Assembly (NCBI RefSeq): GCF_038003085.1
Contig: NZ_JBBOOM010000001.1
Coordinates: 1,364,001 to 1,428,000, forward strand
DNA: 64,000 bases
Source of the DNA: Psychrobacillus sp. FSL K6-2836
Lineage (GTDB): Bacteria > Bacillota > Bacilli > Bacillales_A > Planococcaceae
Reading direction: 5' to 3'
The notes beneath the pieces were generated by a model. That model did not search any database. It had not been told where the DNA came from and saw only the letters and a program-made list of their open reading frames with translations. This document shows, piece after piece, positions 28,602-61,410 of this stretch (position 1 is the stretch's first letter; every line of letters begins with the position of its first letter). A program made the translations under genes and the position numbers.

Positions 28602-28995
28602 TGTGTGGTGGTTTTGGGTGGGTATGTGGCGGTTGGCTTTGGTTATGTGGTAGTTGGTTGGATATGTGGTGGTTGTAGAAGTTTATGCGGTTGTTGGCTG
28701 GATATGTGGTGGTTGGTGTGGTAATTGTAGAAGTTTATGTGGTGGTTGGCTGGATATGTGGTGGTTTGACCTGGGTATGTGGTAGTTTAATCTAATTATG
28801 TGGTGATTTGACTTGGGTATGTGGTGGTTTACTCTAGTTATGTGGTGGTTGTATAAGTTTATGTGGTGGTCGGCTGGATTTGTGGTGGTTTGACCTAGGT
28901 ATGTGGTAGTTGGATCTAGTTATGTGGTGATTTGACTTGGATATGTGGTGGTTCGCTTTGGTTATGTGGTGGTTGGATCTAGTTATGTGGCGGAT
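28602..28995 (+). repeat. Family-A 21-bp phased repeat array A1 (19 units)
   Basis: Core TATGTGGTGGTT followed by 9 variable bases (7 in short units). Core starts: 28602, 28623, 28644, 28663, 28684, 28703, 28736, 28755, 28776, 28797, 28818, 28839, 28860, 28879, 28900, 28921, 28942, 28963, 28984. Most spacings are exactly 21, with some 19 and one 33. A 124-base higher-order unit (19+5x21) is visible at 28736-28860-28984. The array lies between the NERD gene terminator (29013-29046) and the wecC promoter. ORFs across it are artefacts of the period. Confidence 0.93.
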
Positions 28996-29012
28996 GCCAA
29001 GTTGGAATATAA

Positions 29013-29046
29013 AAGGAAGCCAATTTTTGGTTGGCTTCCTTTTTTT
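29013..29046. terminator. Terminator of the first NERD gene
   Basis: An 11-bp stem (29013-29023 with 29031-29041) with strong U-run on the plus strand and UUUUAUAUU on the minus strand, directly at the 3' end of the minus-strand NERD gene and next to array A1. Confidence 0.9.
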
Positions 29047-29941
29047 AGTGCAATATTTTGTATTTGGTGGATTTTTTGTATCCACTTTTTTCTACATTCA
29101 TTTTCTGGAGGCTGTTGTAGATGGTGTATCTTGAATTTATTTCTAGATAATGCATGCAGTCTTTCACCGATAGGTCTGGTTTTATTAACAAGAATAGGTC
29201 TTCAATGTTTGATGAAATCGGATTTTTCTCCGTTGCTAGGCATGTTTTGCAGTGCCAGATTTGGAGTGATTTTCTATGGAGTTTGGAGTTGCAGTTTTTG
29301 CATAGGACCCCCTTTTTTAGTATTTCAGGATTTATATTCATGCGATTGCATAGGGAATCAGGTGTAAAATTATTGTTCATTTTCGTTAGTTGGTTGGCTA
29401 TTTGGTTAAATTGTTGGGCAGTAATTATTGATGACCCTTTGTTTAGTTTTTGGATGAATAATGGGAGTTGTTTGGCAAAGAAGATATGACGGTTTTTTGG
29501 GGCATCTTCGATGATTGTGTTTTGGGATGGAAACACAAGTGCTTGAATGATGGGTAGTTTGGCTCTCGGAAATAATGTCTTAATACCATCGCAGTTTCGA
29601 TCTAGTTGTGTGAACGGACAAGCGTATGATTTTTCTTCTACGTTGTCTTTAATTCGAACTAGTTGGTTGGGGTCTGTTTTGAATCGTAGGGTACCGGTGA
29701 TATTTTTTACTTCTATTAAGAGCATGTAGGATCTGGTTAAAATTAATGTGTCGATTTGGATGTGTCGTTTGGAATGTAAGCGGGTGTGTAGATCTGGGAT
29801 GATGAGTAGTTGCTGTGGAAATAATACTTCTTCTATGAATCGATCGGTTCGTAATTCTCCAAAATAGCCTGCGCTTATTTGGTCCAACTTTTCTAGGATT
29901 GCTGGGTATTTTTCGTGATGGGTTGGCAAGCGGGCTTTCAA
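29045..29941 (-). CDS. NERD-domain protein with zinc ribbon and C-terminal HTH-like domain (paralogue 1)
   Basis: 298 residues from the TTG at 29941. NERD domain (about 18-125): GELRTDRFIEEVLFPQ, then the PD-(D/E)xK-like pair D...ExK in IQIDTLILTRSYMLLIEVKN. A zinc ribbon follows (CKNCNSK ... WHCKTC, about 212-235), then about 55 C-terminal residues with a helix-turn-helix-like pattern (SVKDCMHYLEI ... STKYKILH). The paralogue at 35700-36653 has the same architecture, and its N-terminus aligns with sequence upstream of this TTG. In-frame homology (IEIIRPLP) reaches 29989, where an ATA codon lies 8 bases after AAAGGGG and behind an in-frame TAG (30007-30005). The true start may therefore be ATA 29989. 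Family-A repeat arrays flank the gene on both sides. Likely a DNA-binding or DNA-cutting protein; role unknown. Confidence 0.85.
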   Translation of the reverse strand: MKARLPTHHEKYPAILEKLDQISAGYFGELRTDRFIEEVLFPQQLLIIPDLHTRLHSKRHIQIDTLILTRSYMLLIEVKNITGTLRFKTDPNQLVRIKDNVEEKSYACPFTQLDRNCDGIKTLFPRAKLPIIQALVFPSQNTIIEDAPKNRHIFFAKQLPLFIQKLNKGSSIITAQQFNQIANQLTKMNNNFTPDSLCNRMNINPEILKKGVLCKNCNSKLHRKSLQIWHCKTCLATEKNPISSNIEDLFLLIKPDLSVKDCMHYLEINSRYTIYNSLQKMNVEKSGYKKSTKYKILH

Positions 29942-30088
29942 TCTTGTTAGTGCGTGGTAGTTTTGAGGTAATGGTCTGATAATTTCTATGAGTAGTGCCC
30001 CTTTCTATTGCGTTGGCAATAGGATACCAGATATTAGGTGTTGAGGCAATTGTTTTTTGGGGAATTTTATGTTGTAGATTGGACTGTT

Positions 30089-30266
30089 TGTGTGGTGGTT
30101 GAGAAGAGTTTTGTGGTGGTTGTCGGTCTTTTTGTGGTGATTAAACTTGGTTATGTGGTAGTTGCAAGGTTAAGTGGTGAATAGGATGAGTTTTGTGGTG
30201 GTTGGGATGGGTTATGTGGTGGTTAGTTTGATTTATGTGGTACTTATCAGAGTTTATGTGGCGTTG
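30089..30266 (+). repeat. Family-A 21-bp phased repeat array A2 (9 units)
   Basis: Core (T/A)TGTGGTGGTT. Core starts: 30089, 30110, 30131, 30152, 30171, 30192, 30213, 30234, 30255; spacing 21 except one 19. Same strand as A1 and A3. Located between the 5' end of the NERD gene and the terminator of the SLH gene 30336-32021. Confidence 0.9.
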
Positions 30267-30294
30267 AAGAATTTGAGGGGGTATACCTAAAAAG

Positions 30295-30323
30295 ATCCAT
30301 TGACCTTTGGATGGTCAATGGAT
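30295..30323 (-). terminator. Terminator of SLH gene 30336-32021
   Basis: An 11-bp perfect stem (30295-30305 with 30313-30323) followed on the minus strand by CUUUUUAGG. Confidence 0.9.
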
Positions 30324-30335
30324 TGGGATTTGGTT

Positions 30336-32021
30336 TTATTTTACTAAAGTGTTGTCTACAGTTGCTTCTTTGCCGTTTTTGTATTTAACAGAGAATGTCA
30401 CTTTTGTTGGTTCGCCAGTGAATTTGCCTTCTGTTTTCCAGAAACCGTCTGTTACGTAGTCAAATGCTGGGTCGAATGGCATTGAAATTTGTGTTGCTGT
30501 TGGATAGTCAGTTGCAAATTTTTCTGTCATTGTACCTTTCGCTAAAGATTTTCCGTCTTTGTCAAACCACTCAGCAGTTAGAGTTTCGATGTCGCTAACT
30601 GTTTTGTTTTCTGTTAAAGCTGCTCCAGCTGAATAGCTTGTTTCAGAAGTATTAGAGAAATCTTGTGCTTTGATGTCCCCAGAAACTGTTCTTGTATTTT
30701 CTACAGTAGCTTCTTTGCCGTTTTTGTATTTAACCGAGAATTCAACTTTAGCAGGTTCTCCCTTGAAATTACCTGTTGCAGTCCAGTATCCGTCACCAAT
30801 ATATGCAAAGTTTGCATCGAATGGCATTGAAATATCAGTAGCCATTGGGTATTCTTTTGCAAGTTTGTCTGTTAACGTTCCTTTACCTATTACATTTCCA
30901 GCTAAATCAAACCATTTAACTGTTAGTGTGTCAATATCACTTACTGTTTTGTATTCAGTTAGAACTGCTCCAGCAGAGTATTTGTCTCCACTAACTAAAC
31001 CGAAGTCTTGAGCAACGATGTTACCAGATAATTCTCTTGTGTTTTCAGCTGTTTCTACATCACCATTTTTGAATGTTACAGTGAATTTCACTTTAGTTGG
31101 TTCGCCAATAAAATCACCCGCTACAGTCCAGTAACCGTCTGTTACATAGTTAAAGTTAGCATCAAATGGCATTGAAATTTGTGTAGCCGTTGGGAAATCA
31201 GCTGCAAACTTCTTATTCAATGTTCCTTTACCTAGTTCAGCTCCTGCTTGGTCAAACCATTCTACAGTTAGTGAAGCTACGTCGCTAGCGTTTTGTCCCT
31301 CTGTTAGATCTGCTCCAGCTGTAAAAGTAGTTTTAGTAAGTTGTCCGAAGTCTTCGGCTACAATATTACCGACTTCTTTTTCACTTCTGAAGATAAATGA
31401 AGCCATTTGTCCACGTGTTACATTTGAATATGGGCTGAAAGTTGTTGCAGTTGTACCAGTTGTGATTTCGTTTGCATAAAGTGTTTGAACAAATCCAGCA
31501 ACCTCTTTGTCTTTTGAAATATCAGTAAATGGATTTTCTGCTAGAGTCACTTGATCAAAATCAAATCCTAAAGTAATCATTTTAGCCATTTGCGCTCTTG
31601 TAAGCGTGTTGTTTGGACCAAAAGTGTTGTCATTATATCCTTTGATAATTCCTGCTTCCACTAGTGCCGCGATGTGTACGTAGTATGGGTGATCCTTATT
31701 GATGTCTGTAAAACCAGGGTCCTTAACCTTTTTTGGGTCTAGATCTAAATCAAGTGCCAAAGCCATGATTTTAGCTGCCTGTTTACGATTGATACTTTGG
31801 TACGGTTTAAATGTTCCATCTTCGTATCCAGTGATGATTTGGCGTGAAGCTAAATCCATAACTGGTGCGTAAAGATGGTTTGTCGGTGTATTTTTTACAT
31901 CCGAAAAAGTTGGTACTTTCACTTCTTCTGCTTGTGTTGTGTTTGGTAATGCCGCTACTAGTACGCTAGTAGAGAGTGCAGTTGCTAATGCAATTTTGAA
32001 CATTTTTTGGTACTTGCTCAT
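30336..32021 (-). CDS. SLH protein with three tandem ~110-residue repeats
   Basis: 561 residues from ATG 32021 (MSKYQKMFKIAL), chosen because GGGGGTC lies 12 bases upstream and a clear signal peptide starts here; a longer in-frame ORF reaches 32069 without support. Signal peptide about 1-32 (TTQAEE). SLH repeats lie at about 38-88 (NRKQAAKI), 100-150 (LTRAQMAKM) and 162-212 (VTRGQMASF). They are closer to the SLH nucleotidase at 2857-7863 than to the three S-layer paralogues. Three near-identical modules follow (start IVAEDFG, IVAQDFG, IKAQDFS), each with LTVEWFD, ATQISMPFD and TDGYW motifs. A wall-attached protein of unknown ligand; the regular modules suggest a stalk or adhesive function, which is inference. 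Confidence 0.9.
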   Translation of the reverse strand: MSKYQKMFKIALATALSTSVLVAALPNTTQAEEVKVPTFSDVKNTPTNHLYAPVMDLASRQIITGYEDGTFKPYQSINRKQAAKIMALALDLDLDPKKVKDPGFTDINKDHPYYVHIAALVEAGIIKGYNDNTFGPNNTLTRAQMAKMITLGFDFDQVTLAENPFTDISKDKEVAGFVQTLYANEITTGTTATTFSPYSNVTRGQMASFIFRSEKEVGNIVAEDFGQLTKTTFTAGADLTEGQNASDVASLTVEWFDQAGAELGKGTLNKKFAADFPTATQISMPFDANFNYVTDGYWTVAGDFIGEPTKVKFTVTFKNGDVETAENTRELSGNIVAQDFGLVSGDKYSAGAVLTEYKTVSDIDTLTVKWFDLAGNVIGKGTLTDKLAKEYPMATDISMPFDANFAYIGDGYWTATGNFKGEPAKVEFSVKYKNGKEATVENTRTVSGDIKAQDFSNTSETSYSAGAALTENKTVSDIETLTAEWFDKDGKSLAKGTMTEKFATDYPTATQISMPFDPAFDYVTDGFWKTEGKFTGEPTKVTFSVKYKNGKEATVDNTLVK

Positions 32022-32179
32022 TATGTTGGACCCCCGAATTTTTTTTGGGTAAAAGCTCTCTGTGTTCAATTGATATTAGCATGTTTTATTTGTTTTGAAT
32101 CCATGTAATTTGTGGATATTTTACCAATCAGTAAGAATATGTTAATTGGTATGGGATTTATTTGGTTGATTAATGGATT

Positions 32180-32296
32180 TTTGTGGTGGATGAGGAGGTT
32201 TATGTGGTGGATGGGACAAGTTAAGTGGTGGATTTGATGGTTTATCCGGTGGAATTGACTACATATGTGTTGTTTGATTGGGTTTATGTGGTAGGC
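32180..32296 (+). repeat. Family-A 21-bp phased repeat array A3 (6 units)
   Basis: Core starts 32180, 32201, 32222, 32243, 32264, 32285, all exactly 21 apart; core words TTTGTGGTGG, TATGTGGTGG, TAAGTGGTGG, TATCCGGTGG, TATGTGTTG, TATGTGGTAG. It lies between the start of the SLH gene and the terminator of the ABC transporter operon, in a 327-base gap with no gene. Confidence 0.88.
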
Positions 32297-32333
32297 GGGT
32301 AAAAGTATGGGGGTTTGTTTAATTGCATGTAAA

Positions 32334-32357
32334 AACCACTAGATTGCTCTAGTGGTT
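32334..32357 (-). terminator. Terminator of the amino-acid ABC operon
   Basis: A perfect 9-bp stem (32334-32342 with 32349-32357) that includes the stop codon of the ATPase gene and is followed by UUUUACAU on the minus strand. Confidence 0.9.
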
Positions 32358-33077
32358 AAGTACTTTAGATAGGAAGTCTTGGGCACGCTGTGTGTCCGGA
32401 TTAGTAAAGAATTTGGATGGTGCTGCGCGCTCGACTATTTTGCCTTCTGCCATGAAGACAATTTCGTCGCAGATTTCTTTGGCGAAGCCCATTTCGTGCG
32501 TTACGACGACCATGGTCATGCCGTCTTTCGCTAGTTTACGGATGGCATCGAGCACTTCAGTTACCATTTCTGGGTCGAGTGCGGATGTCGGTTCGTCAAA
32601 TAGCATGACTTGCGGGTCCATTGCTAATGCTCGTGCGATGGCCACACGTTGTTGTTGACCCCCGGAAAGTCTGTTTGGGTAGGCATCAAATTTGTCTGCT
32701 AGTCCAAGGGAAGTTAGTAGTTCTTTTCCTCTTTTTTCAGCTTCTTCTTTGCTTAGTCCTTTTACTTTCATCGGTGCCATAGTTACGTTTCCTAGTGCTG
32801 TCAGGAACGGAAATAGGTTGAAGCTTTGGAAAACGAAGCCGATGTTATTACGCGCTCCATTGATATCCGTTTTTTTGTCGTGGATGGATACGCCGTCCAC
32901 TGTTATTTCTCCATTGTCTATCGGCTCTAATGCGTTGATGGTTCGGATTAGGGTTGATTTACCCGCTCCACTTGGGCCAATCAATGCGACAACATTCGAT
33001 TTTGGTACTTCGAGCGAAACGTCGGTTAGGACGTGGTGGTCGCCGAAGCTTTTATTGACATTTTTGATAGTAATCAT
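32349..33077 (-). CDS. Polar amino-acid ABC transporter, ATP-binding protein
   Basis: 242 residues, typical length for GlnQ/TcyC-type ATPases. Walker [10 protein letters not shown] (about 34-42), Q-loop VFQSFNLFP, signature [15 protein letters not shown] (about 136-150), Walker [14 protein letters not shown], and the switch His in VVVTHEMGF. Third gene of a binding protein-permease-ATPase operon on the minus strand. The ribosome site AAGGAGGG lies in the short 21-base gap after the permease gene. It energises uptake of a polar amino acid; the exact substrate cannot be read from the ATPase. Confidence 0.95.
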
Positions 33078-33098
33078 TTGGGTACACCCTCCTTAACG

Positions 33099-33758
33099 TT
33101 ATGCTTCGCTTTTTTGTAATCGTTTTTCGAAGTATCGAATGATTAGCGATAAGCTGAATGTCATGATGAAATACACAAGCGCAACGAATGTCCAAACTTC
33201 AATCGGACGGAACGATGTTGCTACTAGGTTTTTTGCGTCTAATGTCAACTCGCTTGCAGCAATAATAGATATTAGAGACGAATCTTTGATAAGCATAATA
33301 AATTGTGAAGCAAGTGGCGGTAATATCCGTCTAAATGCTTGCGGTAAAATAATATGTGTCATCGCTTTTGTATGGGACATTCCAAGGGAACGCGCTGCTT
33401 CCATCTGCCCTTTTGGTACGCCTTGGATTCCAGAGCGAACAATTTCTGCGATAAATGCACCGGCAAATATTGCGAGTCCTACAATGGACCCCCAATACGA
33501 GCCTAATCTAAATACTTGCCCGAGCACATAAAATATCCACATTAGTAGAACGAGTAATGGCACCCCACGAATTATTTCAACATACGCAGATGATATAAAT
33601 CGAATGAATTTGTTTTTGGAAATGCGCCCAAGTCCAAAGATAATCCCGATTGGAATTGCCAAAAGGATCGAAATTGCTGAGATTTCTAACGTTTTGAGTG
33701 CACCATATATGAACACATCCATATTTTGTGGGATGACACTCCAGTTATATTGATACAT
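33099..33758 (-). CDS. Polar amino-acid ABC transporter, permease
   Basis: 219 residues, His/Glu/Gln/Arg/opine permease family. About five membrane spans. The family hallmarks AYVEIIRGVPLLVLLMWIFY (about 58-77) and the EAA loop EAARSLGMSHTKAMTHIILPQA (about 133-154) are present. It is probably a homodimer in the membrane, working with the ATPase and the lipoprotein encoded on either side. AGAGGAGG precedes the ATG. Confidence 0.95.
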   Translation of the reverse strand: MYQYNWSVIPQNMDVFIYGALKTLEISAISILLAIPIGIIFGLGRISKNKFIRFISSAYVEIIRGVPLLVLLMWIFYVLGQVFRLGSYWGSIVGLAIFAGAFIAEIVRSGIQGVPKGQMEAARSLGMSHTKAMTHIILPQAFRRILPPLASQFIMLIKDSSLISIIAASELTLDAKNLVATSFRPIEVWTFVALVYFIMTFSLSLIIRYFEKRLQKSEA

Positions 33759-33789
33759 AGTTGTTCCTCCTCTAGGTTGCCAGAGTGTA

Positions 33790-34611
33790 TTACTCTTCTA
33801 CTACTTCTGATAACCAGTCAGAAGTTTCGAACCATTTTTCGCGAGATGCAAGTTCTGTCGGGCTTCCAAGGTAGCTGTCTAGGAATGAATTCACCCACTG
33901 AATTGTTTCAAAGTCATTTTTTCTAATAGCAATCCCTAAGTTCTCAGTTGAAATTAAACCTTCTAATTGAGTTACAGCATCTCCGTTACGTAATTTCCAT
34001 ACCGCGATTGCTGGCTCATCGTACACTACTGCGTTTGCTTCCCCTTGCGCCATTGCTGCCGCTGCTGATGGGAATTCTTCAAAGTCTAGAATTTCTGCAT
34101 TTTTGAATACATCTTTCGCAAGTAAAGCACCAGTTGTTCCGATACCTACTGCAATTTTGTTACCTTTTACATCAAGATCTTGCCAAGTTTTTGTTGTTGT
34201 ATCTGATCCAGGAATCATTACAGCTTGACCAGTTTGGAAGTATGGATTTGCAAAGCTTACTGCTAATGCACGGTCGCCACGAATGGTCATTCCTGCGAAA
34301 ACCATATCCACTTCGCCTGTTTGTAATGCTGAAATTAGACCATCAAATGTGAATTGTTTATATTCCACATCCACACCAAGTGCTTCTCCTAGTGCATTTG
34401 CAGTGTCTACGTCATAACCTACGAAATCGCCATTTGGATCTTTCATATCAAATGGGAAATATCCTGGAGACATCCCGATAATTAATTTCTTCTCTTTTAA
34501 TGCTTTTTGAATTGTTGAGTTTTCTGTTGATACTCCCCCGCCTGAATCATTGCTACAACCTGCGATGATTAAAACGGTAATCATAAGTACTGCTGCTAAC
34601 CATTTCTTCAT
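33790..34611 (-). CDS. Amino-acid ABC transporter substrate-binding lipoprotein
   Basis: 273 residues. Lipoprotein signal peptide with lipobox IIAGC (Cys at about 19), then the family-3 solute-binding fold: LIIGMSPGYFPFDMKDPNG (about 43), GYDVDTANALGEALG, FDGLISALQTGEVDMVFAGM, VGIGTTGALLA, VVYDEPA. The binding site residues for the amino-acid carboxylate (in the SxxxxT/GIGTTG region) look intact. First gene of the operon, behind a clear SigA-type promoter, divergent from an XRE-cupin regulator. Confidence 0.94.
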   Translation of the reverse strand: MKKWLAAVLMITVLIIAGCSNDSGGGVSTENSTIQKALKEKKLIIGMSPGYFPFDMKDPNGDFVGYDVDTANALGEALGVDVEYKQFTFDGLISALQTGEVDMVFAGMTIRGDRALAVSFANPYFQTGQAVMIPGSDTTTKTWQDLDVKGNKIAVGIGTTGALLAKDVFKNAEILDFEEFPSAAAAMAQGEANAVVYDEPAIAVWKLRNGDAVTQLEGLISTENLGIAIRKNDFETIQWVNSFLDSYLGSPTELASREKWFETSDWLSEVVEE

Positions 34612-34658
34612 AATCTTTTTACCCCCGTTTTTTTTATTCAGTTCCCCTTATGAAACTT

Positions 34659-34700
34659 GTGAATTATTAGTAGTATAGATTATTATTATTCACATGTCTA
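34659..34700 (-). promoter_or_regulatory. SigA-type promoter and palindromic operator candidate of the ABC operon
   Basis: On the minus strand -35 TAGACA (34700-34695), 17-base spacer, -10 TATACT (34677-34672). An imperfect inverted repeat GTGAAT...ATTCAC (34659-34664 with 34688-34693) spans the -10 region. It is a plausible binding site for the XRE-cupin protein encoded divergently; that link is inference. Confidence 0.6.
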
Positions 34701-34880
34701 CATAAAAAATAATTAGTTATAATATTTTTATTATTGATTCTATTTGGGAAAAAGTGCAAAATAGATTGTATATACTTGTAGTTTATGTAACTTGGTATAA
34801 GATTAGTATTTTATATTTTCAGCATTTAGATGTTTTATTATTCTGCATAATGCATTTTTATTCAAAAAGGAGTGTTTGTC

Positions 34881-35435
34881 TTGGTTTTTCCTAAAAGTGA
34901 GGTTGGTAAGCGAATTAGGTATTTACGTAGATTTCAAGGATTGACGTCAGAAGAGTTGGCGAAAAAAACTAGCGTGAGCCAGAGTATGATTTCTCAAATT
35001 GAGCGAGGACAAGTTTCTCCTTCTTTAGAAACGTTGTGGAAATTAAGTCATAGCTTGAAGGTTCCGGTGTTTTCGTTCTTTGAGTCAGAGGAAAATAATG
35101 CAGTAACGCTTACCCGCAAAGGTGAGGGTAATCTGATAAAACGTGTGCGACCTAATGTAGGATACGAACTTTTGTCGCCAAGTTCCGGCAAACAGATGAG
35201 CTTTTTTAAGATGATCGTGTCGCCAGGCGATGGCACCGATGATCCACTCATGTTCCATGGCGGCGAGGAGTGCGGGCTGATGCTGGTTGGTAGTTTGCGT
35301 ATTGAGATTGATGGCGAGGCTTACCTAATTAACGAGGGCGATAGTATTTACTTTGATAGTTCGCTACCGCATCGGTTTATGAATGATGGCGATACGGATG
35401 CAATAGCTATTTGGACGATGACATATGATTTTTAG
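34881..35435 (+). CDS. XRE-family regulator with cupin domain
   Basis: 184 residues from the TTG at 34881; an in-frame GTG at 34872 overlaps the ribosome site AAAAAGGAG, whereas TTG 34881 is 8 bases from it. N-terminal HTH (about 4-58: VGKRIRYLRRFQGLTSEELA, then SQSMISQIERGQVSPSLETL). C-terminal cupin_2 barrel (about 105-180: GGEECGLMLVGSLRIEIDG, then EGDSIYFDSSLPHRF), which senses a small molecule in this family. Regulators of this type often control a divergent transporter, here the amino-acid ABC operon, which carries an inverted repeat over its -10 box. Confidence 0.9.
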   Translation: MVFPKSEVGKRIRYLRRFQGLTSEELAKKTSVSQSMISQIERGQVSPSLETLWKLSHSLKVPVFSFFESEENNAVTLTRKGEGNLIKRVRPNVGYELLSPSSGKQMSFFKMIVSPGDGTDDPLMFHGGEECGLMLVGSLRIEIDGEAYLINEGDSIYFDSSLPHRFMNDGDTDAIAIWTMTYDF

Positions 35436-35490
35436 GTTTTGAGGGTCTTTCGCGAGAGTGGAGGGCTTTTTTTGTTGGGGAGGTTTTTGT

Positions 35491-35656
35491 CTCTCGGATA
35501 GATTGGGTTGTCTCTCGTATAGGAGCTGTGCTCTCTCGTATAATCTGAGGTCGCTCTCGTATATGGGGAGCTCTCTCGTATCACCTGGAAATTCTCTCGT
35601 ATAAATCGGAATCTCTCTCGTACACTCTCGTTTAGATTGGTATCACTCTTTGCTAA
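35491..35656 (+). repeat. Family-B 21-bp phased repeat array B1 (9 units)
   Basis: Core CTCTCGTATA. Core starts: 35491, 35512, 35533, 35554, 35573, 35594, 35615, 35625, 35646; spacings 21, 21, 21, 19, 21, 21, 10, 21. The 10-base step is one helical turn. The array fills the space between the XRE-cupin gene and the terminator of the second NERD gene. Confidence 0.9.
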
Positions 35657-35672
35657 AAGTTTATTTATAAGT

Positions 35673-35701
35673 AAAGCCCTTTGACTTGGTCAGAGGGCTT
35701 T
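35673..35701. terminator. Terminator shared by the XRE-cupin and second NERD genes
   Basis: A 12-bp stem with one wobble pair (35673-35684 with 35690-35701) that overlaps the NERD stop codon; U-rich on both sides, so usable in both directions between convergent genes. Confidence 0.85.
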
Positions 35702-36653
35702 ACTTTGGAAAGATCATTTGGTATTTAGTACTTGAGGATTTTCCGATTTTCGTTAGATTTGCTTTTTTCATTATTCTGGTTGCCTCATGGTTATTGTTTA
35801 GGCGCAAGAATTGTCTGCACTCCTTGTTTGATAGTGTTTTTCTAGCTATTAAAAAATATTCTTTGATTGTATGTTGGTGTGCAGTTTGACTTGGCGTACT
35901 ACACTTAGGACAAATCCATCGGAGCTTAACCTTTTTGATTCCAATATAGGTACAATTTTCGCAAATAACTCCAGTGATTAAATCTTTGGGATCAATCGAA
36001 TAGTAATCACTTAGCGGAAATGGTTGATAGTCCTTGTTTTTCTGTAAAATGAGATTTTTTATTCGTTCGAGTTGCGTTACGTTTAAATGGGGCTTTTGAG
36101 TTTTTATTGCTCGCAGATAAGAGAGTAAATCGTTTTGTAAGAGAATAGTTGTCCGGTTGGAGGAATTAATGATGTGCAGAGTTTCAAAAGCGAAGACAAC
36201 GGCACCTAGGACTGGAAGATTGATATTGAATTGTTTGAAAAACTGGGTTAGTTGATAAATATAATCTTCTACCTGAGATTCGGGGCTGCGACTGACATTT
36301 TTCACTCCATTTGCAAGTGTCTGAACCATCTGGCTGGGGTTAGTTGTAATTTCAACGGTATCTTTGAAATTTTTTACTTCTAGGATTAATGCGTAGTGTG
36401 GCGTAACAATTAGGATATCCATTTGAATTAGCTTTTCGGCATATAGACTGACGTTGTGGTATGCGTGAAACGAGTACGGGAGTTTTAGTTTTGCCAGTTC
36501 GCGCATTACTACTTCTTCACCAATGTCTCCGGCGGCTTTGTTTTTTGCTTTTTTCAGCATACTTTTATGCATTGGATGAGATATTGGGAGTCTTAGCGCA
36601 ATAGAATTTAGTGCTTCTGATTCTAAAGTTGTTTTGAATGGTTTTACTATCAA
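35700..36653 (-). CDS. NERD-domain protein with zinc ribbon and C-terminal HTH-like domain (paralogue 2)
   Basis: 317 residues from TTG 36653 (GAGGTGA about 8 bases upstream). NERD domain (about 35-150): AGDIGEEVVMRELAKLKLPY, then D...ExK in LIQMDILIVTPHYALILEVKNFKDTV, the catalytic pattern of the restriction-endonuclease fold. Zinc ribbon CENCTYIGIKK ... WICPKCS (about 228-252). C-terminal 60 residues (SNKECRQFLRLNNNHEATRI, then SSTKYQMIF) look like a small winged or helix-turn-helix domain. It is a clear paralogue of the protein at 29045-29941. It is flanked by family-B arrays on both sides (35491-35656 and 36969-37533). NERD proteins in general are uncharacterised nuclease-like proteins; the link to the repeats is a new inference. 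Confidence 0.88.
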   Translation of the reverse strand: MIVKPFKTTLESEALNSIALRLPISHPMHKSMLKKAKNKAAGDIGEEVVMRELAKLKLPYSFHAYHNVSLYAEKLIQMDILIVTPHYALILEVKNFKDTVEITTNPSQMVQTLANGVKNVSRSPESQVEDYIYQLTQFFKQFNINLPVLGAVVFAFETLHIINSSNRTTILLQNDLLSYLRAIKTQKPHLNVTQLERIKNLILQKNKDYQPFPLSDYYSIDPKDLITGVICENCTYIGIKKVKLRWICPKCSTPSQTAHQHTIKEYFLIARKTLSNKECRQFLRLNNNHEATRIMKKANLTKIGKSSSTKYQMIFPK

Positions 36654-36968
36654 TATTTATCACCTCAATAATAGATTAGCATAGTACTTTCAGGGAATCC
36701 ATTTAATTTCCATTTTTACGTTTTAATTAGATATTGTGCTGTAGAAATGGAATTGTTACATATTTTAAACAATTTAATAATCGATGGTTTTTCAGTATTT
36801 AACGTTGATATGAATGGAATTTTCAATAGAATGCAAGTTAGTGGATTAAGAAATTGTTCGGGATTATATAATATTATGATGCTGTTAGATTTCATGATTT
36901 TAATGTGCTTTTCGCTTTTAGACGAAAAGCTTCCGATTGGGTTTTACTCTGGATATGTGAGGATTCTA

Positions 36969-37533
36969 CTCTTGTATGAATGTGGCTCTCTCGTATAGGA
37001 GGTGATCGCTCTCGCGTAAGCGATGATCAATCTCGTATAGGTGGTGATTGCTCTCGTATCGGCTATGATCATTCTCGTATAGAATGCGATCTCTCTTTTA
37101 TGCACTAGGGTCTCTCGTACAGAGGTTGATTGCTCTCGCATAGGCGATGATCATTCTTGTATAGACTGGGATCGCTCTCGTATGCGCTAGGTCTCTCGTA
37201 TAGGGGTGGATTGCTCTCGCATGGGAGACGATCATTCTCGTATAGAAAGGGATCTCTCTCGTATGCGTTGGGGTCTCTCGTATAGGGATGGATCGCTCTC
37301 GCATAAGCGATGATCATTCTCGTATAGACTGGGATCGCTCTCGTATGGGTCGGGTTCTCTCGTTTAGGGGTGGATTGCTCTCGCATAGGCGATGATCACT
37401 CTCGTATAGACTAGTTTCTCTCTCGTATGCACTAGGGTCTCTCGTCCAGATGGTGATTACTCTCGTATCGGCGACGATCATTCTCGTATAGAATGGGATC
37501 GCTCTCGTATATATAGCAATCACTCTCGCATAG
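36969..37533 (+). repeat. Family-B 21-bp phased repeat array B2 (28 units)
   Basis: Core CTCTCGTATAG plus about 10 variable bases, often ending GATC or GATT. I read 28 cores from 36969 to 37523. Spacing is 21 except for short units of 18-19 at regular places, giving a higher-order unit of 82 bases (19+21+21+21): 37193, 37275, 37357, 37439. The array sits upstream of the second NERD gene and downstream of the argD terminator. The remaining part of the gap (36654-36968) is AT-rich with no gene visible. Confidence 0.95.
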
Positions 37534-37560
37534 GGCATTTTCTTTATGTGGGCATTATTA

Positions 37561-37589
37561 AAGGACCCGCCGTATTTAGGCGGGTCCTT
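37561..37589 (-). terminator. Terminator of the argCJBD operon
   Basis: A perfect 11-bp GC-rich stem (37561-37571 with 37579-37589), followed on the minus strand by UUUAAUAAU. Confidence 0.9.
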
Positions 37590-37639
37590 GGGAGTGAATA
37601 GCGGTTCGCTGAGCGCTTTAATTCAAGGTAATATAAGTT

Positions 37640-38767
37640 TTATTTACTAAGGATTGCTTGTAAGATGTCGACGACTTGGTCGATTTCTTCCGTTGTTACG
37701 GTTAGTGGTGGCAGGAGGCGGATGACGTTTGGTCCTGCCGCTACTAGTAGTAGACCTGCTTCGTCGGCTGCTGTTATGTAGGCTGCAACTTCTTCTTCGC
37801 AGACGATTCCAAGTAATAGACCAGAGCCGACTAGCTGATTGGTTGGTAGAGCTTCATTTAATTTCTCGATAAAATAAGCAGATTTTTTATTCACATCTGC
37901 TATAAATTCCGGTACAAATACGTTATCCAATACTGTTTGTGCGACGGCTACCGCTAGAGGATTTCCTCCGAAGGTCGTGCCGTGTGTGCCTGGACCTAAT
38001 GAGTCGTGTAGGTCTGCTGTTCCGAGCATAGCACCGATTGGGAAGCCACCGCCAAGCCCTTTGGCTAACGTCATAATGTCAGGTTTTAGGACTGTTTGCT
38101 CGTATGCATAGCGAGTACCTGTACGGCTAATGCCTGTTTGGACTTCGTCTACTATGAGTAGGATTCCATTGGCTGCGCATATGTCCGTGATAGCCTGTGC
38201 AAATTCCGGTGTTACTTGGTTGACTCCGCCTTCTCCTTGGATTACTTCGAGCATGATTGCGCCGACTTCATCGTCGATTACTGCTTCTAATGCAGTTACG
38301 TCGTTGAAGGGTACTGTTTTGAACGTTTCGAGCAATGGACCGAAGCCGCTGCGTATTTTGTCCTGACCAGTTGCGGACATGGCACCGAATGTGCGACCGT
38401 GGAATGATTTTTCAAAGGTGATGATCGTGTGCTTTCCAGTATGTTTGCGTGCCAGCTTGATAGCTGCTTCGTTCGCCTCTGCTCCGCTATTACAGAAGAA
38501 TGCGTGAGCAAAATGTGTATCATTTACAAGAGTTTCAGCAAGTTTTTCTTGTTCTGGGTTTTCGAATAAGTTCGAGATATGCCAGAGTTTTTCACTTTGC
38601 TGTTGAATCGCTTGGACCACTGCAGGATGAGTGTGCCCCAGACTGAGCACAGCTATACCACTTGTAAAATCGAGATAGTTTTTTCCAGTATTGTCCGTAA
38701 CGATCGTACCTTTACCTTTCACAAGGTGAATAGGTCGGCGAGTATAGTTTTGGAATAAAGAGCTCAT
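37640..38767 (-). CDS. argD: Acetylornithine aminotransferase
   Basis: 375 residues from ATG 38767 (MSSLFQNYTRRP), with AGGAGGT upstream; the longer frame to 38851 runs inside argB and is not used. Class-III aminotransferase that makes N-acetylornithine with glutamate as donor, PLP-dependent, cytoplasmic. Signatures: FCNSGAEANEAAIKLAR (about 94-110), HGRTFGAMSATGQ, LLIVDEVQTGISRTG (about 203-217), and the PLP-binding Lys in MTLAKGLGGGFPIGA (about 238). Last gene of argCJBD; its ATG overlaps the argB stop (ATGA). N-terminus and length are normal for ArgD. Confidence 0.95.
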   Translation of the reverse strand: MSSLFQNYTRRPIHLVKGKGTIVTDNTGKNYLDFTSGIAVLSLGHTHPAVVQAIQQQSEKLWHISNLFENPEQEKLAETLVNDTHFAHAFFCNSGAEANEAAIKLARKHTGKHTIITFEKSFHGRTFGAMSATGQDKIRSGFGPLLETFKTVPFNDVTALEAVIDDEVGAIMLEVIQGEGGVNQVTPEFAQAITDICAANGILLIVDEVQTGISRTGTRYAYEQTVLKPDIMTLAKGLGGGFPIGAMLGTADLHDSLGPGTHGTTFGGNPLAVAVAQTVLDNVFVPEFIADVNKKSAYFIEKLNEALPTNQLVGSGLLLGIVCEEEVAAYITAADEAGLLLVAAGPNVIRLLPPLTVTTEEIDQVVDILQAILSK

Positions 38768-39543
38768 GCGTATACCTCCTGCTGCAAAATTGTTGTGCCG
38801 GATAGCTGATCTCCGACGATTTGGACGGAGGGAATACCTGCTGTTAGGCAATCAAGAGCCGCTGTTACTTTTGGAATCATCCCACCGTATATATCACCCG
38901 AAGTGATCCATTCGGTAATTTTATCAGAGGTAACAGTTTCTTGTACCTCTCCATCTATTTTTATACCTGGCGTGTCGGTTACGAGTTGCAGGCTTACTGC
39001 TTTTATTGCTAAAGCGACTTCGCTTGCTACAGTGTCGGCATTGATGTTCAGTGGGTCTCCATCTGTGGTGCAGCCAATGCTTGAAATGACTGGCGTGATT
39101 CCATTTTTCAGTAATACTTCAATAAATGATGTATTCACTTGTTGGATTTCTCCGACAAATCCGTACGTTGCTTCATCTAATAGCTCGCATTGTAACAGCT
39201 GACTATCGTAGCCACTAAGACCGATTGCTTGGATTCCGCTTTTATTCAGCTGGTGCACTAGTGCTGGATTTACTTGACCGACTAGTGTTGACTGGACAAT
39301 CCCGATTGCTTCGGCGGATGTCACTCGTATTCCGTTAATAGAAATGGTCGAGATTCCGTTACTTGCAAGGGCTTTGTTGATCGCAGGTCCCCCGCCGTGA
39401 ACGATGACGATTTCACGTCCAGATACTTGCAGTCTTTTGAAATTGGTGAAGAAGTTTTCATTTAACCCCTCAAGCATGCTACCGCCCAGCTTGATGACGA
39501 TGCGTTTAGGAGCGGTAAGTTGCGTTGATTTGGACGTAGTCAT
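38764..39543 (-). CDS. argB: Acetylglutamate kinase
   Basis: 259 residues. Amino-acid kinase fold: IVIKLGGSMLEG (about 15-26), IVHGGGPAINKAL (about 48), NINADTVASEVALA (about 168), and TDTPGIKID. It phosphorylates N-acetylglutamate, the second step of arginine synthesis. The start ATG 39543 lies 38 bases inside argJ, with GGGGGTG about 13 bases upstream; this larger overlap is unusual but no better in-frame start is seen. The short N-terminus lacks the helix of arginine-inhibited kinases, which fits an ArgJ-containing (cyclic) pathway. Confidence 0.94.
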   Translation of the reverse strand: MTTSKSTQLTAPKRIVIKLGGSMLEGLNENFFTNFKRLQVSGREIVIVHGGGPAINKALASNGISTISINGIRVTSAEAIGIVQSTLVGQVNPALVHQLNKSGIQAIGLSGYDSQLLQCELLDEATYGFVGEIQQVNTSFIEVLLKNGITPVISSIGCTTDGDPLNINADTVASEVALAIKAVSLQLVTDTPGIKIDGEVQETVTSDKITEWITSGDIYGGMIPKVTAALDCLTAGIPSVQIVGDQLSGTTILQQEVYA

Positions 39544-40732
39544 ATGTCAAATCGCACCCCCAAGCAGTTCCTTGGCCGTTGCCTTGATGAATATCGACGA
39601 AGATTTTGACTTCTGGCTGCTTCAAATAAACGATTAAATCATCCTCTGAAAAAGGTACAGGCTCGCCGTTTTCTACAACTTTTGTTGTCCCTAGCAGGAT
39701 TGTAATGGCGTTTGGATCAATTGTTGCACCGCTATAGCCGACCGCTGCAATGATTCGTCCCCAGTTTGCGTCATTACCAAAAATGGCAGTTTTCACAAGC
39801 GGAGATCCAACTACTGTTTTTGCTATTTTACGTGCTTCTATATCAGTAATAGCACCTTTTACTTCCACTTCAATTAGTTTCGTTGCGCCTTCCCCGTCTT
39901 TGGCAATCATTTTAGCTAGATCTTGAGACACAGTGTGTAAGGTTTCTACGAAGTTTTCCCAGTCTGGATGGTCTGGTGTTAACGTATTATTTTGTGCCAT
40001 TCCATTTGCCATCACGATGACCATGTCATTTGTCGATGTGTCGCCATCAACAGTAATTGCGTTGAAAGTAACGTCTGTGATTGCTTTTAGTGCGTCCTGA
40101 AGATGGTTGGATTCGATATTTGCATCGGTAGTGATAAAACCAAGCATCGTTGCCATATTTGGTTCAATCATGCCAGAGCCTTTTGCGGTCCCTGCGATAA
40201 TAACCTCTTTACCATCAATGATTGTTGAATAAGTTGTATTTTTTGTTACGGTATCTGTTGTCATGATTGCTAAAGAGAAGTCGATCGCACCTTCTAGTTC
40301 GTCCGCAGGTTCTAACGTTTGAATCCCTATAGTTACTGGCTCCATTTTCATGAGCTCCCCGATAACTCCAGTTGAGGCAACACCGATAAGTGATTGATCT
40401 ATCCCTAGTTTTTCTGCCGTTAGTTTTTGCATCGTGTATGCGTCTGCCATCCCTTGTTTTCCTGTGCAGGCATTGGCATTCCCAGCGTTGACGATGATTG
40501 CTTGCATTTTACCTGTTTCATATACGACATCTTTTGTGATTAGTAGTGGTGCCGCTTTGATGGCATTTGTTGTGAAAACTCCAGCTACACTTGCAGGGAC
40601 GTCGCTAACAAGTAATGCAAGATCTTTTTTCTTATGTTTTAGGCCGCAATGGATACCTGTTGCTTGGAAACCCTTTGGTGAAGCGATGTTTTTATAGGAA
40701 ATGCTTTTCATCGTAATCGTTTTTGTAGTCAT
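39506..40732 (-). CDS. argJ: Bifunctional ornithine acetyltransferase / N-acetylglutamate synthase
   Basis: 408 residues. ArgJ recycles the acetyl group from acetylornithine to glutamate and, in bifunctional forms, also uses acetyl-CoA. The precursor self-cleaves before the Thr in GSGMIEPNMATMLGF (about 190). Other family strings: VNAGNANACTGKQG (about 82), VDGDTSTNDMV, and the C-terminal WGCDLTYDYVQINATYRS. GAGGAGGAATAACCG precedes the ATG. It is the second gene of the arginine operon, 18 bases after argC. Whether it is mono- or bifunctional cannot be decided here; no separate argA is visible in the window. Confidence 0.95.
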   Translation of the reverse strand: MTTKTITMKSISYKNIASPKGFQATGIHCGLKHKKKDLALLVSDVPASVAGVFTTNAIKAAPLLITKDVVYETGKMQAIIVNAGNANACTGKQGMADAYTMQKLTAEKLGIDQSLIGVASTGVIGELMKMEPVTIGIQTLEPADELEGAIDFSLAIMTTDTVTKNTTYSTIIDGKEVIIAGTAKGSGMIEPNMATMLGFITTDANIESNHLQDALKAITDVTFNAITVDGDTSTNDMVIVMANGMAQNNTLTPDHPDWENFVETLHTVSQDLAKMIAKDGEGATKLIEVEVKGAITDIEARKIAKTVVGSPLVKTAIFGNDANWGRIIAAVGYSGATIDPNAITILLGTTKVVENGEPVPFSEDDLIVYLKQPEVKIFVDIHQGNGQGTAWGCDLTYDYVQINATYRS

Positions 40733-40750
40733 CGGTTATTCCTCCTCTTT

Positions 40751-41923: not shown

Positions 41924-41926
41924 GGA

Positions 41927-44531: not shown

Positions 44532-44625
44532 TTACTTGCGGTCGCTGGCTGGATAATTGCTCTCGGGAGGCAGTTACTTGCTCTTTGCCTACGTTTACTT
44601 GCGATGCGGTGGCTTTTCTTGCGGA
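44532..44625 (+). repeat. Family-C 21-bp phased repeat array C1 (5 units)
   Basis: Core TTACTTGCG. Core starts 44532, 44553, 44574, 44595, 44615 (21, 21, 21, 20). It is followed, 14 bases after the last core start, by GAATATTTATCCA (44629-44641), exactly as in array C2. Located between the 43770-44432 gene start and the terminator of the next gene. Confidence 0.8.
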
Positions 44626-48387: not shown

Positions 48388-48763
48388 CTGTCGTAATTTT
48401 GGGTTCGCTTTCGTATGGAATGGCAATCTCGTGTAGATTGGTTTCTCTCTCGTATAAGCCCATTTTACTCTCGTATGGTTGCTATGCTCCCTCGTATAGG
48501 CGCAAATCGCTCTCGTATAGAACGGCAAGCTCGTATAGCTTGGTTTTTTTCTCGTATAAACCCACTTTACTCTCGTATAGTTGCTATGCTCTCTTGTATA
48601 GGCGCAAATCGCTCTCTTATAGAACGGCTATCTCGTATAGATTGGATTCGCTCTCGTATAAACCCATTTTACTCTCGTATAGTTGCTATGCTCTCTCGTA
48701 TAGGCGCTAACCTCTCTCGTATAGCATGGCAATCCCGTATCGACCGGATTCGCTCTCGTATAG
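48388..48763 (+). repeat. Family-B 21-bp phased repeat array B3 (19 units)
   Basis: Core CTCTCGTATAG. Core starts: 48388, 48408, 48426, 48447, 48468, 48489, 48510, 48528, 48549, 48570, 48591, 48612, 48630, 48651, 48672, 48693, 48714, 48732, 48753. The pattern 18+21+21+21+21 repeats three times, a 102-base higher-order unit (48426, 48528, 48630, 48732). 102 is a multiple of three, so several frames stay open across it; these ORFs are not genes. A run of C (48777-48786) follows. Confidence 0.94.
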
Positions 48764-59810: not shown

Positions 59811-59823
59811 TAATATTTTATTA

Positions 59824-59856
59824 AAACCCTGGCCAAATATTTTTTGGTCAGGGTTT
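59824..59856. terminator. Terminator between ywqA and ssbB
   Basis: An 11-bp stem with one wobble (59824-59834 with 59846-59856), U-rich after on the plus strand (UUUCCCUCUUUU); between convergent genes. Confidence 0.75.
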
Positions 59857-59901
59857 CCCTCTTTTGATAATCATTGAATAGGATTGCGGCCTTATCAATC
59901 A

Positions 59902-60309
59902 TTAAACTGGTAGTTGGTTTGGTGGTGTTACTGGAAATTCAAAATCACTCTCAATATTTTTATTTGGCTGTTGCACTGTTTGTGCTGGTTGTTCCTCGTC
60001 TCGTTTCTTTGTTGCTAAAAATCGGATGTCCTCCACAACTATTTCTGTAACGAATACTCTCGCTCCCGCTTCCTTCTCATAAGACCTTGTATTAAGTCTA
60101 CCTGTTATCCCTACAAGTGACCCTTTACCACAATACTTGACGGTCGTTTCAGCGAGCTTTCCCCAAATCGTGCATAGCACAAAGTTCGCTTCATCATTTT
60201 TATAGCTTTTATTTACCGCGACTATGAAACTCGTTTGCATCCTCCCTTCTGATAAATGCTTTAATTGTGGAGATTTCGTCATACGTCCGATTATCGAAAC
60301 AGTGTTCAA
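59902..60309 (-). CDS. ssbB: Single-stranded DNA-binding protein (SsbB type)
   Basis: 135 residues. OB-fold ssDNA-binding protein (about 1-103: VSIIGRMTKSPQLKHLSEGR, FVLCTIWGKLAETTVKYCGKGS, GRLNTRSYEKE). A short C-terminal tail lacks the acidic DDDLPF tip that binds partner proteins, as in B. subtilis SsbB (YwpH) of competence. It starts at TTG 60309 with a strong AAAGGAGGTGA. Next to ywqA and ywpF, as in the B. subtilis ywq/ywp region. A role in natural transformation is likely by analogy, though no clear ComK box is seen. Confidence 0.88.
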   Translation of the reverse strand: MNTVSIIGRMTKSPQLKHLSEGRMQTSFIVAVNKSYKNDEANFVLCTIWGKLAETTVKYCGKGSLVGITGRLNTRSYEKEAGARVFVTEIVVEDIRFLATKKRDEEQPAQTVQQPNKNIESDFEFPVTPPNQLPV

Positions 60310-60564
60310 TCTGTCACCTCCTTTACTAGCATTAGCCCTATCATACTGGCAGTATAAATTGTTGGCAAAAGCTTATAATTCAATTTTCAAGCATTTTTTA
60401 AGCACAAAATTTAATTCCTGAAACCGACTTTCTTTAAACTCTTTCTATATCAACTTTCTAATTTTCAATAATGCTATTTTGGTAGTTTGTACTATTATTT
60501 TTTCCACCTAAATCACTATGCTATAATGGAAACTAATTAATGCTTTTCCAAAGGGGATTTGTGT

Positions 60565-60993
60565 ATGAAAACATTCAAAATGATTTCAGTCAGTATTATT
60601 TCAGACCATGAAGAAGTGCCAATAACAATTGAGGATGGCATTGTTATCAATCAGGAAAATTCAAGCCGTTCTTGGATATTAGAACTATTTACTGATCAAA
60701 AATACGAAAATTATTTTAATGAATTAAAAATGTCTAATGAAGTATATGATGTAAAAGTTATTATTTCTTATCCAGAAAACGAACCTGCTCATTTTGAAGT
60801 GGTAACCTACTCTGTTAAACAAATTGGCAATCACCTTTCCGTGCTGCTTAGAGGTACATTGAAACGAGTAAGAAGAAAATACGCAGAGTCTTTGCTAGCG
60901 CAGCTAATCGAGGAAGGCTTAACTGGCGAAGATTTACTTTCTAAATTTGAAAACGATATGAAAACTAGACCTGCCTTGAAGAAGGATCAATAG
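60565..60993 (+). CDS. ywpF: YwpF-like protein
   Basis: 142 residues from ATG 60565 (MKTFKMISVSII), 8 bases after AAGGGGA; an in-frame TTG at 60559 is too close. Beta-rich first 100 residues (ENSSRSWILELFTDQKYEN, VKVIISYPENEPAHFEV) and a C-terminal helix (RKYAESLLAQLIEEGL). Matches the YwpF family, of unknown function. Its position among ssbB, fabZ and flhP mirrors the B. subtilis order. Cytoplasmic. Confidence 0.82.
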   Translation: MKTFKMISVSIISDHEEVPITIEDGIVINQENSSRSWILELFTDQKYENYFNELKMSNEVYDVKVIISYPENEPAHFEVVTYSVKQIGNHLSVLLRGTLKRVRRKYAESLLAQLIEEGLTGEDLLSKFENDMKTRPALKKDQ

Positions 60994-61201
60994 TAGGAAA
61001 CCTAATACTAGCTTTGCTAATGCAATTTTTGTTTATACCGGAATTCTTGGAATCCCTGTGAATTTGCAGCGATTTTTGTTACGTAAAATCACTGAGACCA
61101 GCCATTGCTATCGGTTGAGATCAATTTTTCCACTTTGCCAAGTTTATAAATACCGTTTACTTCCATGAAGGATATCGCAAGTTTTTCTTCTTTAATACTA
61201 G

Positions 61202-61316
61202 TTACTTGCGTTAACATGTCGGTTACTTGCGCTCATGGTAAATTTACTTGCTCTATCCTATCCGGTACTTGCGCTACGTCGTTGGTTACTTGCTTTCAAG
61301 TGCCATTTATTTGGGA
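61202..61316 (+). repeat. Family-C 21-bp phased repeat array C2 (6 units)
   Basis: Core TTACTTGCG. Core starts 61202, 61223, 61244, 61265, 61286, 61307, all exactly 21 apart. Fourteen bases after the last core start comes GAATATTTATCCA (61321-61333), the same flank at the same distance as in C1. A solitary core lies at 61383. The array sits between ywpF and the convergent lipoprotein gene; the rest of 60994-61410 shows no gene. Confidence 0.88.
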
Positions 61317-61410
61317 AACGGAATATTTATCCATTAAGAAAGGTGGATATTCTATAGAAATCATCTAGGACGAAAGATTTAGTTACTTGCGCTTGCCATT
61401 TGTTTAACTG

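Follow-up and report, generated by a model that had tools for sequence, protein, structure and literature searches.

Two genes for NERD-domain proteins, N1 and N2, are each set between arrays of short intergenic direct repeats in a Psychrobacillus genome, and the locus thus raises the question of whether such proteins read the repeats beside them. Both genes lie in a 64,000-bp stretch, here called the window (contig C1, positions 1364001-1428000 of a 4.54-Mb genome that shares its genus with Psychrobacillus antarcticus), in which an initial annotation had described three repeat families, A, B and C. Judging from sequence comparisons, NERD proteins very probably bind and read their arrays. The best explanation as a whole, to which we give a probability of about 0.5, is an array-directed nuclease whose arrays would spread and be renewed by breaks and repair. 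The pairing of gene and array, the shared spacing, the co-variation of repeat word and protein, the change of protein tail and array as one tract and the invariance of catalytic-type residues were computed directly, as were, for family A only, local clustering and copied blocks. The features of the window are given below.

28602..28995, plus strand: array A1, 19 detected cores TATGTGGTGGTT (AACCACCACATAA on the NERD gene strand), with 13 steps of 21 bp and 4 of 19 bp
29045..29941, minus strand: NERD protein N1, Pfam NERD E=1.2e-10, four-Cys zinc ribbon, C-terminal winged-helix-like tail
30089..30245, plus strand: array A2, 7 detected family A cores
32180..32275, plus strand: array A3, 4 detected family A cores, 3' of an ABC-transporter gene
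35491..35635, plus strand: array B1, 8 detected cores CTCTCGTATAG (CTATACGAGAG on the NERD gene strand)
35700..36653, minus strand: NERD protein N2, Pfam NERD E=1.6e-14, zinc ribbon, winged-helix-like tail
36988..37533, plus strand: array B2, 25 detected family B cores, 82-bp higher-order repeat
44532..44623, plus strand: array C1, dispersed, family C core TTACTTGCG (CGCAAGTAA on the other strand)
48408..48763, plus strand: array B3, dispersed, 17 detected family B cores, 102-bp higher-order repeat
61202..61294, plus strand: array C2, five C cores at 21-bp steps, with a lone further core at 61383-61391

As the initial annotation had stated, both genes are bracketed by their own family, A1 and A2 standing around 29045-29941 and B1 and B2 around 35700-36653. 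N2 is 26% identical to N1 and 87% identical to a protein of P. antarcticus, the closest named relative found. Core A (at most 2 mismatches) had 37 matches in the window against 6.1 expected and core B had 57 against 11.2, with 0 of 100 shuffles as high in either case. Core C (at most 1 mismatch) had 25 matches against 15.5 expected, and because 3 of 100 shuffles equalled its count, this family is weak judged by the window alone; genome-wide, 78 C-core pairs were found against 0 for the reversed control pattern, and family C is therefore real in the genome. Of the nine arrays originally claimed, A1-A3 and B1-B3 were recovered, while C is reduced to two clusters plus the lone core. A B array also occupies the place matching B3 in the related genomes G137 and G125.

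The genome contains 8 NERD-domain matches, of which 5 are full-length relatives of N1 (N1-N5) with the NERD/zinc-ribbon/helix-turn-helix (HTH) architecture, all with the zinc-ribbon cysteines and a similar tail. An array at period 21, equal to two helical turns, adjoins every one of these 5 genes, each with its own core word on the gene's strand: AACCACCACATAA for N1, CTATACGAGAG for N2, GAATCRCTAGAATGT for N3, CGCTCG/CGCCCG for N4 and GCGCAAC for N5. By comparison, an array stands beside 97 of 1021 non-NERD genes (9.5%) in 1.2 Mb, and the three further NERD-domain genes, of other architecture, have no array in their 1.5-kb flanks. The two genes of the window, both enclosed by their own family, make up 2 of the 5 gene-array pairs of the genome. 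The N3 match (locus L040, about 1490-1560, near 2986932 in the same genome) has an in-frame TGA just 5' of the open frame used, so its true start or integrity is uncertain.

Within the taxonomic family, 236 of 261 genomes encode a protein of this kind; a sample of 398 genomes from the class contained 68 with it, of which 30 belong to 17 other families. We assembled 107 NERD loci (84 places minus 4 seen twice, plus 27), namely 76 of the genus, which are most but not all of the NERD matches found there, 11 of other genera of the family and 20 of other families. The last group holds one locus per genome for 20 of the 30 other-family genomes with a match, covers 13 of the 17 families and was taken from the top of the match list, not at random. 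At least 3 core pairs at spacing 21 were present in the flanks of 98 of the 107 loci and in none of 107 dinucleotide-shuffled flanks (one each). Random placement with respect to NERD genes, named beforehand as fatal to the proposed link, is thus not what was observed. Positive loci made up 72/76 in the genus, 10/11 in other genera and 16/20 in other families, or 18/20 when period 20 was allowed, and arrays stood beside the protein in 10 of the 13 other families examined. Spacings of 15-17 and 23-27 passed the same threshold in 0-6 of 80 loci. Of these first 80 loci 75 were positive: 21 have arrays on both sides of the gene, 41 on its 3' side only and 13 on its 5' side only.

Spacing outside the window, on which the phasing claim had been staked, is again 21, with period 20 scoring higher in 4 of the 20 distant loci (L216, L218, L229 and, weakly, L221). 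Core-to-core distances around 75 NERD loci were 21 (813), 19 (72), 20 (39), 42 (35), 40 (26) and 18 (21), with rarer others. Hence the phasing of the three window families at 21 bp was confirmed, and the distance of exactly 21 holds as the dominant step, steps of 18-20 and 29 bp occurring too. A period scan of 1.2 Mb of the genome returned 43 segments with period 21 and at most 8 for any other period from 12 to 40; at least 5 of the 43 are, by their words, coding or low-complexity stretches, not arrays. In the window, a 69-bp tandem repeat at 41939-42073, inside an asparagine-rich protein gene read as RsgI-like, yields a false period-21 segment in the scan. Seven words (A, B, C, D, E, F and that of N3) formed 72 clusters in the 1.2 Mb, merged into 58 arrays, against 0 clusters in dinucleotide-matched random sequence. 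Reversed sequence gave 9 (4 of family B and 5 of family D), because both of these words match read backwards too.

The word follows the protein. After 11 of the 107 loci had been dropped (in-frame stop or length <270), 96 were aligned, and the 80 with at least 4 pairs and 5 aligned cores each were used. Mean core similarity was 0.30 at protein identities below 30%, 0.56 at 50-60%, 0.69 at 70-80% and 0.88 above 80%, while the comparison with reverse-complement cores stayed flat at 0.24-0.34. None of 999 permutations in a Mantel test matched the association of core similarity with protein identity. The check suggested at the outset, namely whether array family co-varies with NERD paralogue type, therefore gave a positive answer. 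Core orientation relative to the gene is also kept: of the 290 pairs that reach 50% identity, 281 score higher in the forward than in the reverse comparison.

The N2 locus, between argD and an HTH regulator gene, illustrates this well. A NERD gene is present there in 7 of 18 relatives, and the word is CTATACGAGAG in the genome under study (G000) and in G125 (87% identical), CGCAAGTA in G137 (50% identical), CGAGAGTA in G140, TCCGCCAGTAA in G131, CGACAAAC in G139 and G141, and CCGAGAGAA in G142. Because the G137 allele carries the family C word, family C does have a NERD partner in a sister species. Family F likewise lacks a partner here, and its word belongs to N5 alleles that G130 and G131 carry at 75% identity. 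Among 19 genomes of the genus, A pairs are present in G000, G137, G132 and G127; G127 has 5 A pairs, and none of its five NERD genes is shown with the A word (four were read). Co-occurrence of core and gene over these 19 genomes partly reflects shared ancestry and was not taken as proof.

Which part of the protein changes with the word was examined with domain borders that we set on N2: NERD 39-157, linker 158-215, zinc ribbon 216-262 and tail 263-317. E-type and F-type alleles of N5 are 83-90% identical in the NERD domain and 50-54% in the tail, whereas tails within one type are 85-94% identical, and 17 of the 25 fixed differences between the types fall in the last 55 positions. Over the 56 pairs with NERD domains at least 75% identical, core similarity tracks tail identity (rho 0.79) above NERD identity (0.50). 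A further case is that of the sister genomes G135 and G136. Across most of a stretch of nearly 6 kb their identity is about 97%, with 100-base blocks at 0.91-1.0 apart from 0.82 in a single end block. Within the gene, block identity is 0.83-0.97 over the first half and then 0.78-0.82, 0.65 and 0.56; it is 0.49-0.56 in the 3' array and returns to 0.97-1.0 directly behind it. The two NERD domains are 97% and the two tails 40% identical, and the words are GCAAGGTT and GCAACACT. A similar drop separates G130 from G000 at N5 and G137 from G125 at the N3-type locus, while the same-word pair G125/G000 at N5 never falls below 0.73 in gene identity. From these alignments, the DNA-reading tail and the repeats appear to be exchanged together between strains.

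The proteins themselves were assigned to the NERD family, the two window proteins scoring 42.4 and 54.8 bits for Pfam PF08378 against a curated cut-off of 22.1 and all 42 family members tested matching NERD at E<=0.5. Their only other Pfam matches are weak ones of zinc-ribbon type, and the HUH tyrosine transposase was not among them. In the 96 homologues, E46, D79, E92, K94 and Q127 are 100% conserved and the zinc cysteines 99-100%. Sixteen positions are conserved at 95% or more (R21, G42, G45, E46, D79, E92, K94, N95, P124, Q127, G228, the four Cys and W246), while some of the greatest variability falls on tail positions, 288 (3.6 bits) being an example. The pattern of E46, D79, E92 and K94 we take to be an active PD-(D/E)XK-type site, with these residues presumably catalytic. 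An AlphaFold2 model from three sequences places helices (H275-284, H287-296) and strands (E299-302, E309-312) in the tail, at a mean predicted local distance difference test score of only 44.7. A profile search of the PDB gave nothing below E=0.1, and the hits listed cover the zinc-ribbon stretch. The NERD part weakly resembles that of the anti-phage proteins MAD6 (N2) and PglW (N1); with the PADLOC models, N2 had no match and N1 matched only PglW (E=0.0017, profile positions 50-141 of 1403). Neither 50,697 phage records nor 72,556 plasmid records gave a match to N2, and viral contigs contained no relative of N1 or N2 in a search that reaches close relatives only. A phage or plasmid origin of the genes is accordingly unsupported by the viral-contig (N1, N2) and the phage and plasmid (N2) searches.

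Arrays have a history of their own. Dispersed arrays elsewhere on the chromosome repeat the words seen beside N1, N2, N4 and N5, and higher-order repeats of 82, 102 and 124 bp within arrays indicate that units duplicate in blocks. Two A arrays separated by 2.3 Mb resemble each other at 86% over 399 bp with no flank match found, one right flank in this comparison still containing array units; the A arrays at 1136698 and 1161086 share flank sequence too and may be an ordinary duplication. Spacers shared between A arrays number 16 against 3.5 expected (largest of 200 shuffles, 12), and 53 of 193 A spacers are duplicates, the spacers behind the core, as cut here, being 7-10 bp. Arrays of family A with an exact core pair gather near N1, with 10 of 13 lying within 400 kb (2.5 expected) and 5 of 7 doing so in G137 (1.3 expected); the two tests are not independent, since some arrays are common to both genomes. 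At C1:1202596 and 3493945, A arrays carry units with an inverted core (AAATGGTGG...CCACATAAATCC) at their ends.

Arrays may also outlast their gene. A cognate NERD allele of family C was not found in the genome under study, where C arrays persist. The argD locus of G130 (contig C8, locus L141, 10240-10960) lacks the NERD gene and retains a series of C arrays, in which a higher-order repeat of ~186 bp is seen; this suggests gene loss by recombination between flanking direct arrays. In the whole of G130 there are 216 C pairs, and the C word is carried by none of the three NERD matches there. Further C arrays stand in G137 (contig C1 near 2916909, locus L215, 10908-10981) and in G125 (contig C26 near 36000) at sites where our genome has no three-core C cluster; C arrays thus do come and go.

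With regard to neighbouring genes, the view that arrays lie outside coding regions was upheld: none of the 58 merged arrays is inside a called open reading frame (ORF) and one (B3) overlaps an ORF, although the mechanical ORF list does contain frames that run through arrays. A coding role was rejected, because unit steps of 18, 19, 20 and 21 break the frame. Arrays were further said to lie mostly next to terminators; a terminator-like stem was indeed seen by eye at 7 of 8 clusters (not C2), but a terminator consensus scan of 28500-48400 gave no excess (19 against 18.0). Only 3 of the 58 arrays lie between divergent genes, compared with 90 of 428 background intergenic regions, and between tandem genes 25 are sense and 12 antisense. 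That cores always lie on the plus strand is correct locally; genome-wide, both strands are used (90 and 78). A plus-strand rule or a strict orientation to transcription was rejected by these counts. Single-strand folding of three array stretches, on both strands, showed no excess over shuffles (z from -1.43 to +1.57), by which a hairpin or REP-like repeat was also rejected, and an Rfam search matched no known RNA in the window. The two neighbouring genes adjoining array C1 (44682-45044 and 45148-45540) are visibly similar and have no Pfam match.

Pairing, spacing elsewhere and co-variation support the earlier proposal that related NERD proteins with different specificity would read the arrays. 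In the explanation that we prefer, each gene would encode a sequence-specific DNA nuclease whose NERD domain carries an intact PD-(D/E)XK-type site and whose C-terminal winged-helix-like tail would recognise its own array. One protein would sit on each 21-bp unit, all on one face of the helix, and neighbours would pack side by side; we lean towards such packing being cooperative. Gene and array would form one selfish or semi-domesticated pair. The protein would nick or cut its own arrays, and recombinational repair between arrays would lengthen them, copy blocks of units between them and seed new ones, chiefly in the vicinity of the gene and at sites that tolerate insertion, behind the 3' ends of genes. 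A new specificity would arise when recognition tail and adjacent array are replaced as one block, the old-type arrays staying as orphans. A catalytic-type site, an array in cis, copied blocks and local clustering together suggest cutting at arrays and repair-driven copying, and cutting as the driver of spread is proposed tentatively. With similar reserve, we suggest that this might be a bacterial self-programmed recombination-hotspot system, in which array-cutting nucleases drive array spread and the tail-array cassette is swapped between strains. If so, specificity would turn over rapidly and leave orphan arrays behind in strata, and gene and repeat would stand in a conflict or partnership of a new kind, widespread in Bacilli.

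Several results weigh against the array-directed nuclease. Nine of the 107 loci fail the pairing test (L052, L063, L173, L191, L193, L221, L227, L229 and L235), with the flank truncated in L052 and L191 and period 20 scoring in L229 and weakly in L221. The rank correlation of protein identity with core similarity over all pairs is only 0.24, because most pairs are below 40% identity, where words are unrelated; locus pairs are, moreover, not independent. In the 333 pairs with NERD domains at least 55% identical, core similarity correlates better with the linker (0.65) and zinc ribbon (0.56) than with the tail (0.45), partial correlations are led by the linker (0.38, tail 0.18), and L068 and L070/L071 keep one core although their tails are 56% identical, so other parts of the protein may contribute to the word. 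The N3 word was not found elsewhere in the stretches of genome examined. Families B and E owe their excess spacer sharing to arrays no more than 2.3 kb apart, and distant copying is therefore shown for A only. For 13 dispersed arrays a relative could be matched at, or spanned, both flanks: the same family was there in 11 cases, a single core in one, and one array, of family C, was absent (in G125); most dispersed arrays are hence old and present-day mobility is low. Finally, 34 B pairs occur in G137, whose N2-locus gene has another core, and C pairs number 216 in G130, where the cognate gene was not found, against 40 in G137, which has it. Array number thus does not simply follow the resident gene.

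Pairing and block exchange would be accounted for equally well by sequestration or self-marking, in which the array tethers the nuclease in an inactive state as an antidote and free nuclease, or DNA without occupied arrays, is cut. Gene plus array would then be an addiction or defence module and the dispersed arrays extra sinks. Gene and array are nearly always together and are seemingly exchanged as one block, invariant catalytic-type residues are combined with a diversifying tail, a combination that polymorphic toxins and restriction enzymes show too, and the resemblance to MAD6 (N2) and PglW (N1), though weak, is to anti-phage proteins. Five specificities side by side in one genome fit this poorly, however, as do the PADLOC result, which gives no model match beyond a short PglW stretch, and the absence of N2 from the 50,697 phage and 72,556 plasmid records. 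The C arrays of G130 without a cognate gene fit sequestration and the array-directed nuclease alike, and sequestration is in our estimate rather unlikely. Defence could also be more direct, the protein being an anti-phage or anti-plasmid nuclease and the arrays guide-like or decoy sequences taken from invaders. Fast turnover of specificity and the occurrence of NERD domains in known defence proteins would agree with it, but the spacers are 7-10 bp and often duplicated within an array, the two loci inspected adjoin argD and, judged by translation, a methionine-pathway gene, and neither the viral contigs (N1 and N2, close relatives only) nor the phage records (N2) hold a relative, all of which makes this quite improbable.

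A role in chromosome architecture deserves somewhat more credit than direct defence, while still being improbable. Here, nucleoid-associated NERD proteins would cover the arrays at gene ends, acting as a block to transcription or as organisers of the chromosome, and would keep the nuclease fold for structure only. Such a role explains the placement of arrays behind genes (divergent genes flank 3 of 58 arrays and 90 of 428 intergenic regions), and array positions are largely conserved between species. It explains neither the 100% conservation of E46, D79 and E92xK94 nor the turnover, in which sister species differ in specificity and old arrays are orphaned, unlike a housekeeping role; there is also no strict orientation to genes (25 sense, 12 antisense). 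Linkage by descent alone, with ordinary mini-satellites merely inherited beside NERD genes, would be in line with local clustering and the vertical inheritance of many arrays. It is barely credible, given that a single period with differing words recurs at five loci of one genome and in 10 other families of Bacilli, and that the words track the protein and keep a fixed orientation to its gene. The array-directed nuclease therefore remains our preferred explanation.

The initial annotation knew of no described system of this kind, and within the open-access literature, among the matches listed, this was borne out: neither a description of NERD proteins with arrays nor a known reader for such dispersed intergenic repeats of Bacillales was found there. 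Iteron arrays of plasmid replication and partition are direct repeats at about two helical turns that are bound by winged-helix proteins. Unlike iterons, the present arrays are chromosomal and dispersed, with many families per genome and a nuclease domain on the protein, and N2 has no plasmid match. Type I restriction HsdS, and PRDM9 with its hotspots, combine a conserved catalytic part with a rapidly exchanged DNA-reading part; here, by contrast, the target array changes along with the reading domain. CRISPR arrays differ as well, since the spacers here are 7-10 bp with many duplicates and no Rfam match was obtained in the window, cas genes not having been searched for.

The RAYT gene is flanked by its repeats and is single copy per group. 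The present genes are likewise flanked by their own repeat family, which is dispersed elsewhere. According to the accessible parts of the reports on REP/REPIN sequences with RAYT (TnpA-REP) transposases, or 'REPtrons' (PMC3116915, PMC8049555, PMC8266576), the two systems further share a chromosomal gene near its own short repeats, several gene-repeat groups per genome, extragenic dispersal of the repeats and co-evolution of protein and repeat. They differ in that the repeats here are direct, 21-bp phased and without excess single-strand folding, the protein is of NERD/zinc-ribbon/tail type and not a HUH tyrosine transposase, and sister genomes differ in tail and array jointly, as one block. 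STAR elements of Staphylococcus, as described in the available portion of PMC3532100, are intergenic direct repeats with a conserved 14-bp GC-rich core and spacers of at least 40 bp (40-44 at gapR); the spacers are locus-specific, the arrays expand and contract and the function is given as unknown. Dispersed intergenic direct repeats with a conserved core and variable spacers are thus common to both. The arrays here have period 21, other cores and short spacers and do not match the STAR consensus as that portion gives it; it names no cognate protein, whereas here a NERD gene adjoins the array. The abundant intergenic TAACTGA direct repeats of Beggiatoaceae have another word, and the title of PMC4679880 names RNA polymerase subunits, not NERD proteins.

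REP/RAYT is therefore nearest in logic and STAR nearest in repeat style, and the tested defining features of both are absent here. The pairing, the differing words and the seeming joint exchange of tail and repeats point to an undescribed, fast-changing system of nuclease-like NERD proteins and their target sites in bacterial chromosomes. For the small NERD/zinc-ribbon proteins this supplies a predicted target on DNA, a tail predicted to recognise it and domain-swap alleles provided by nature. If the explanation is correct, a widespread nuclease domain would be linked to a new class of repeats, natural pairs would become available for learning a protein-DNA recognition code, and the long-lived gene-repeat partnership of REP/RAYT type would have a second, unrelated case.

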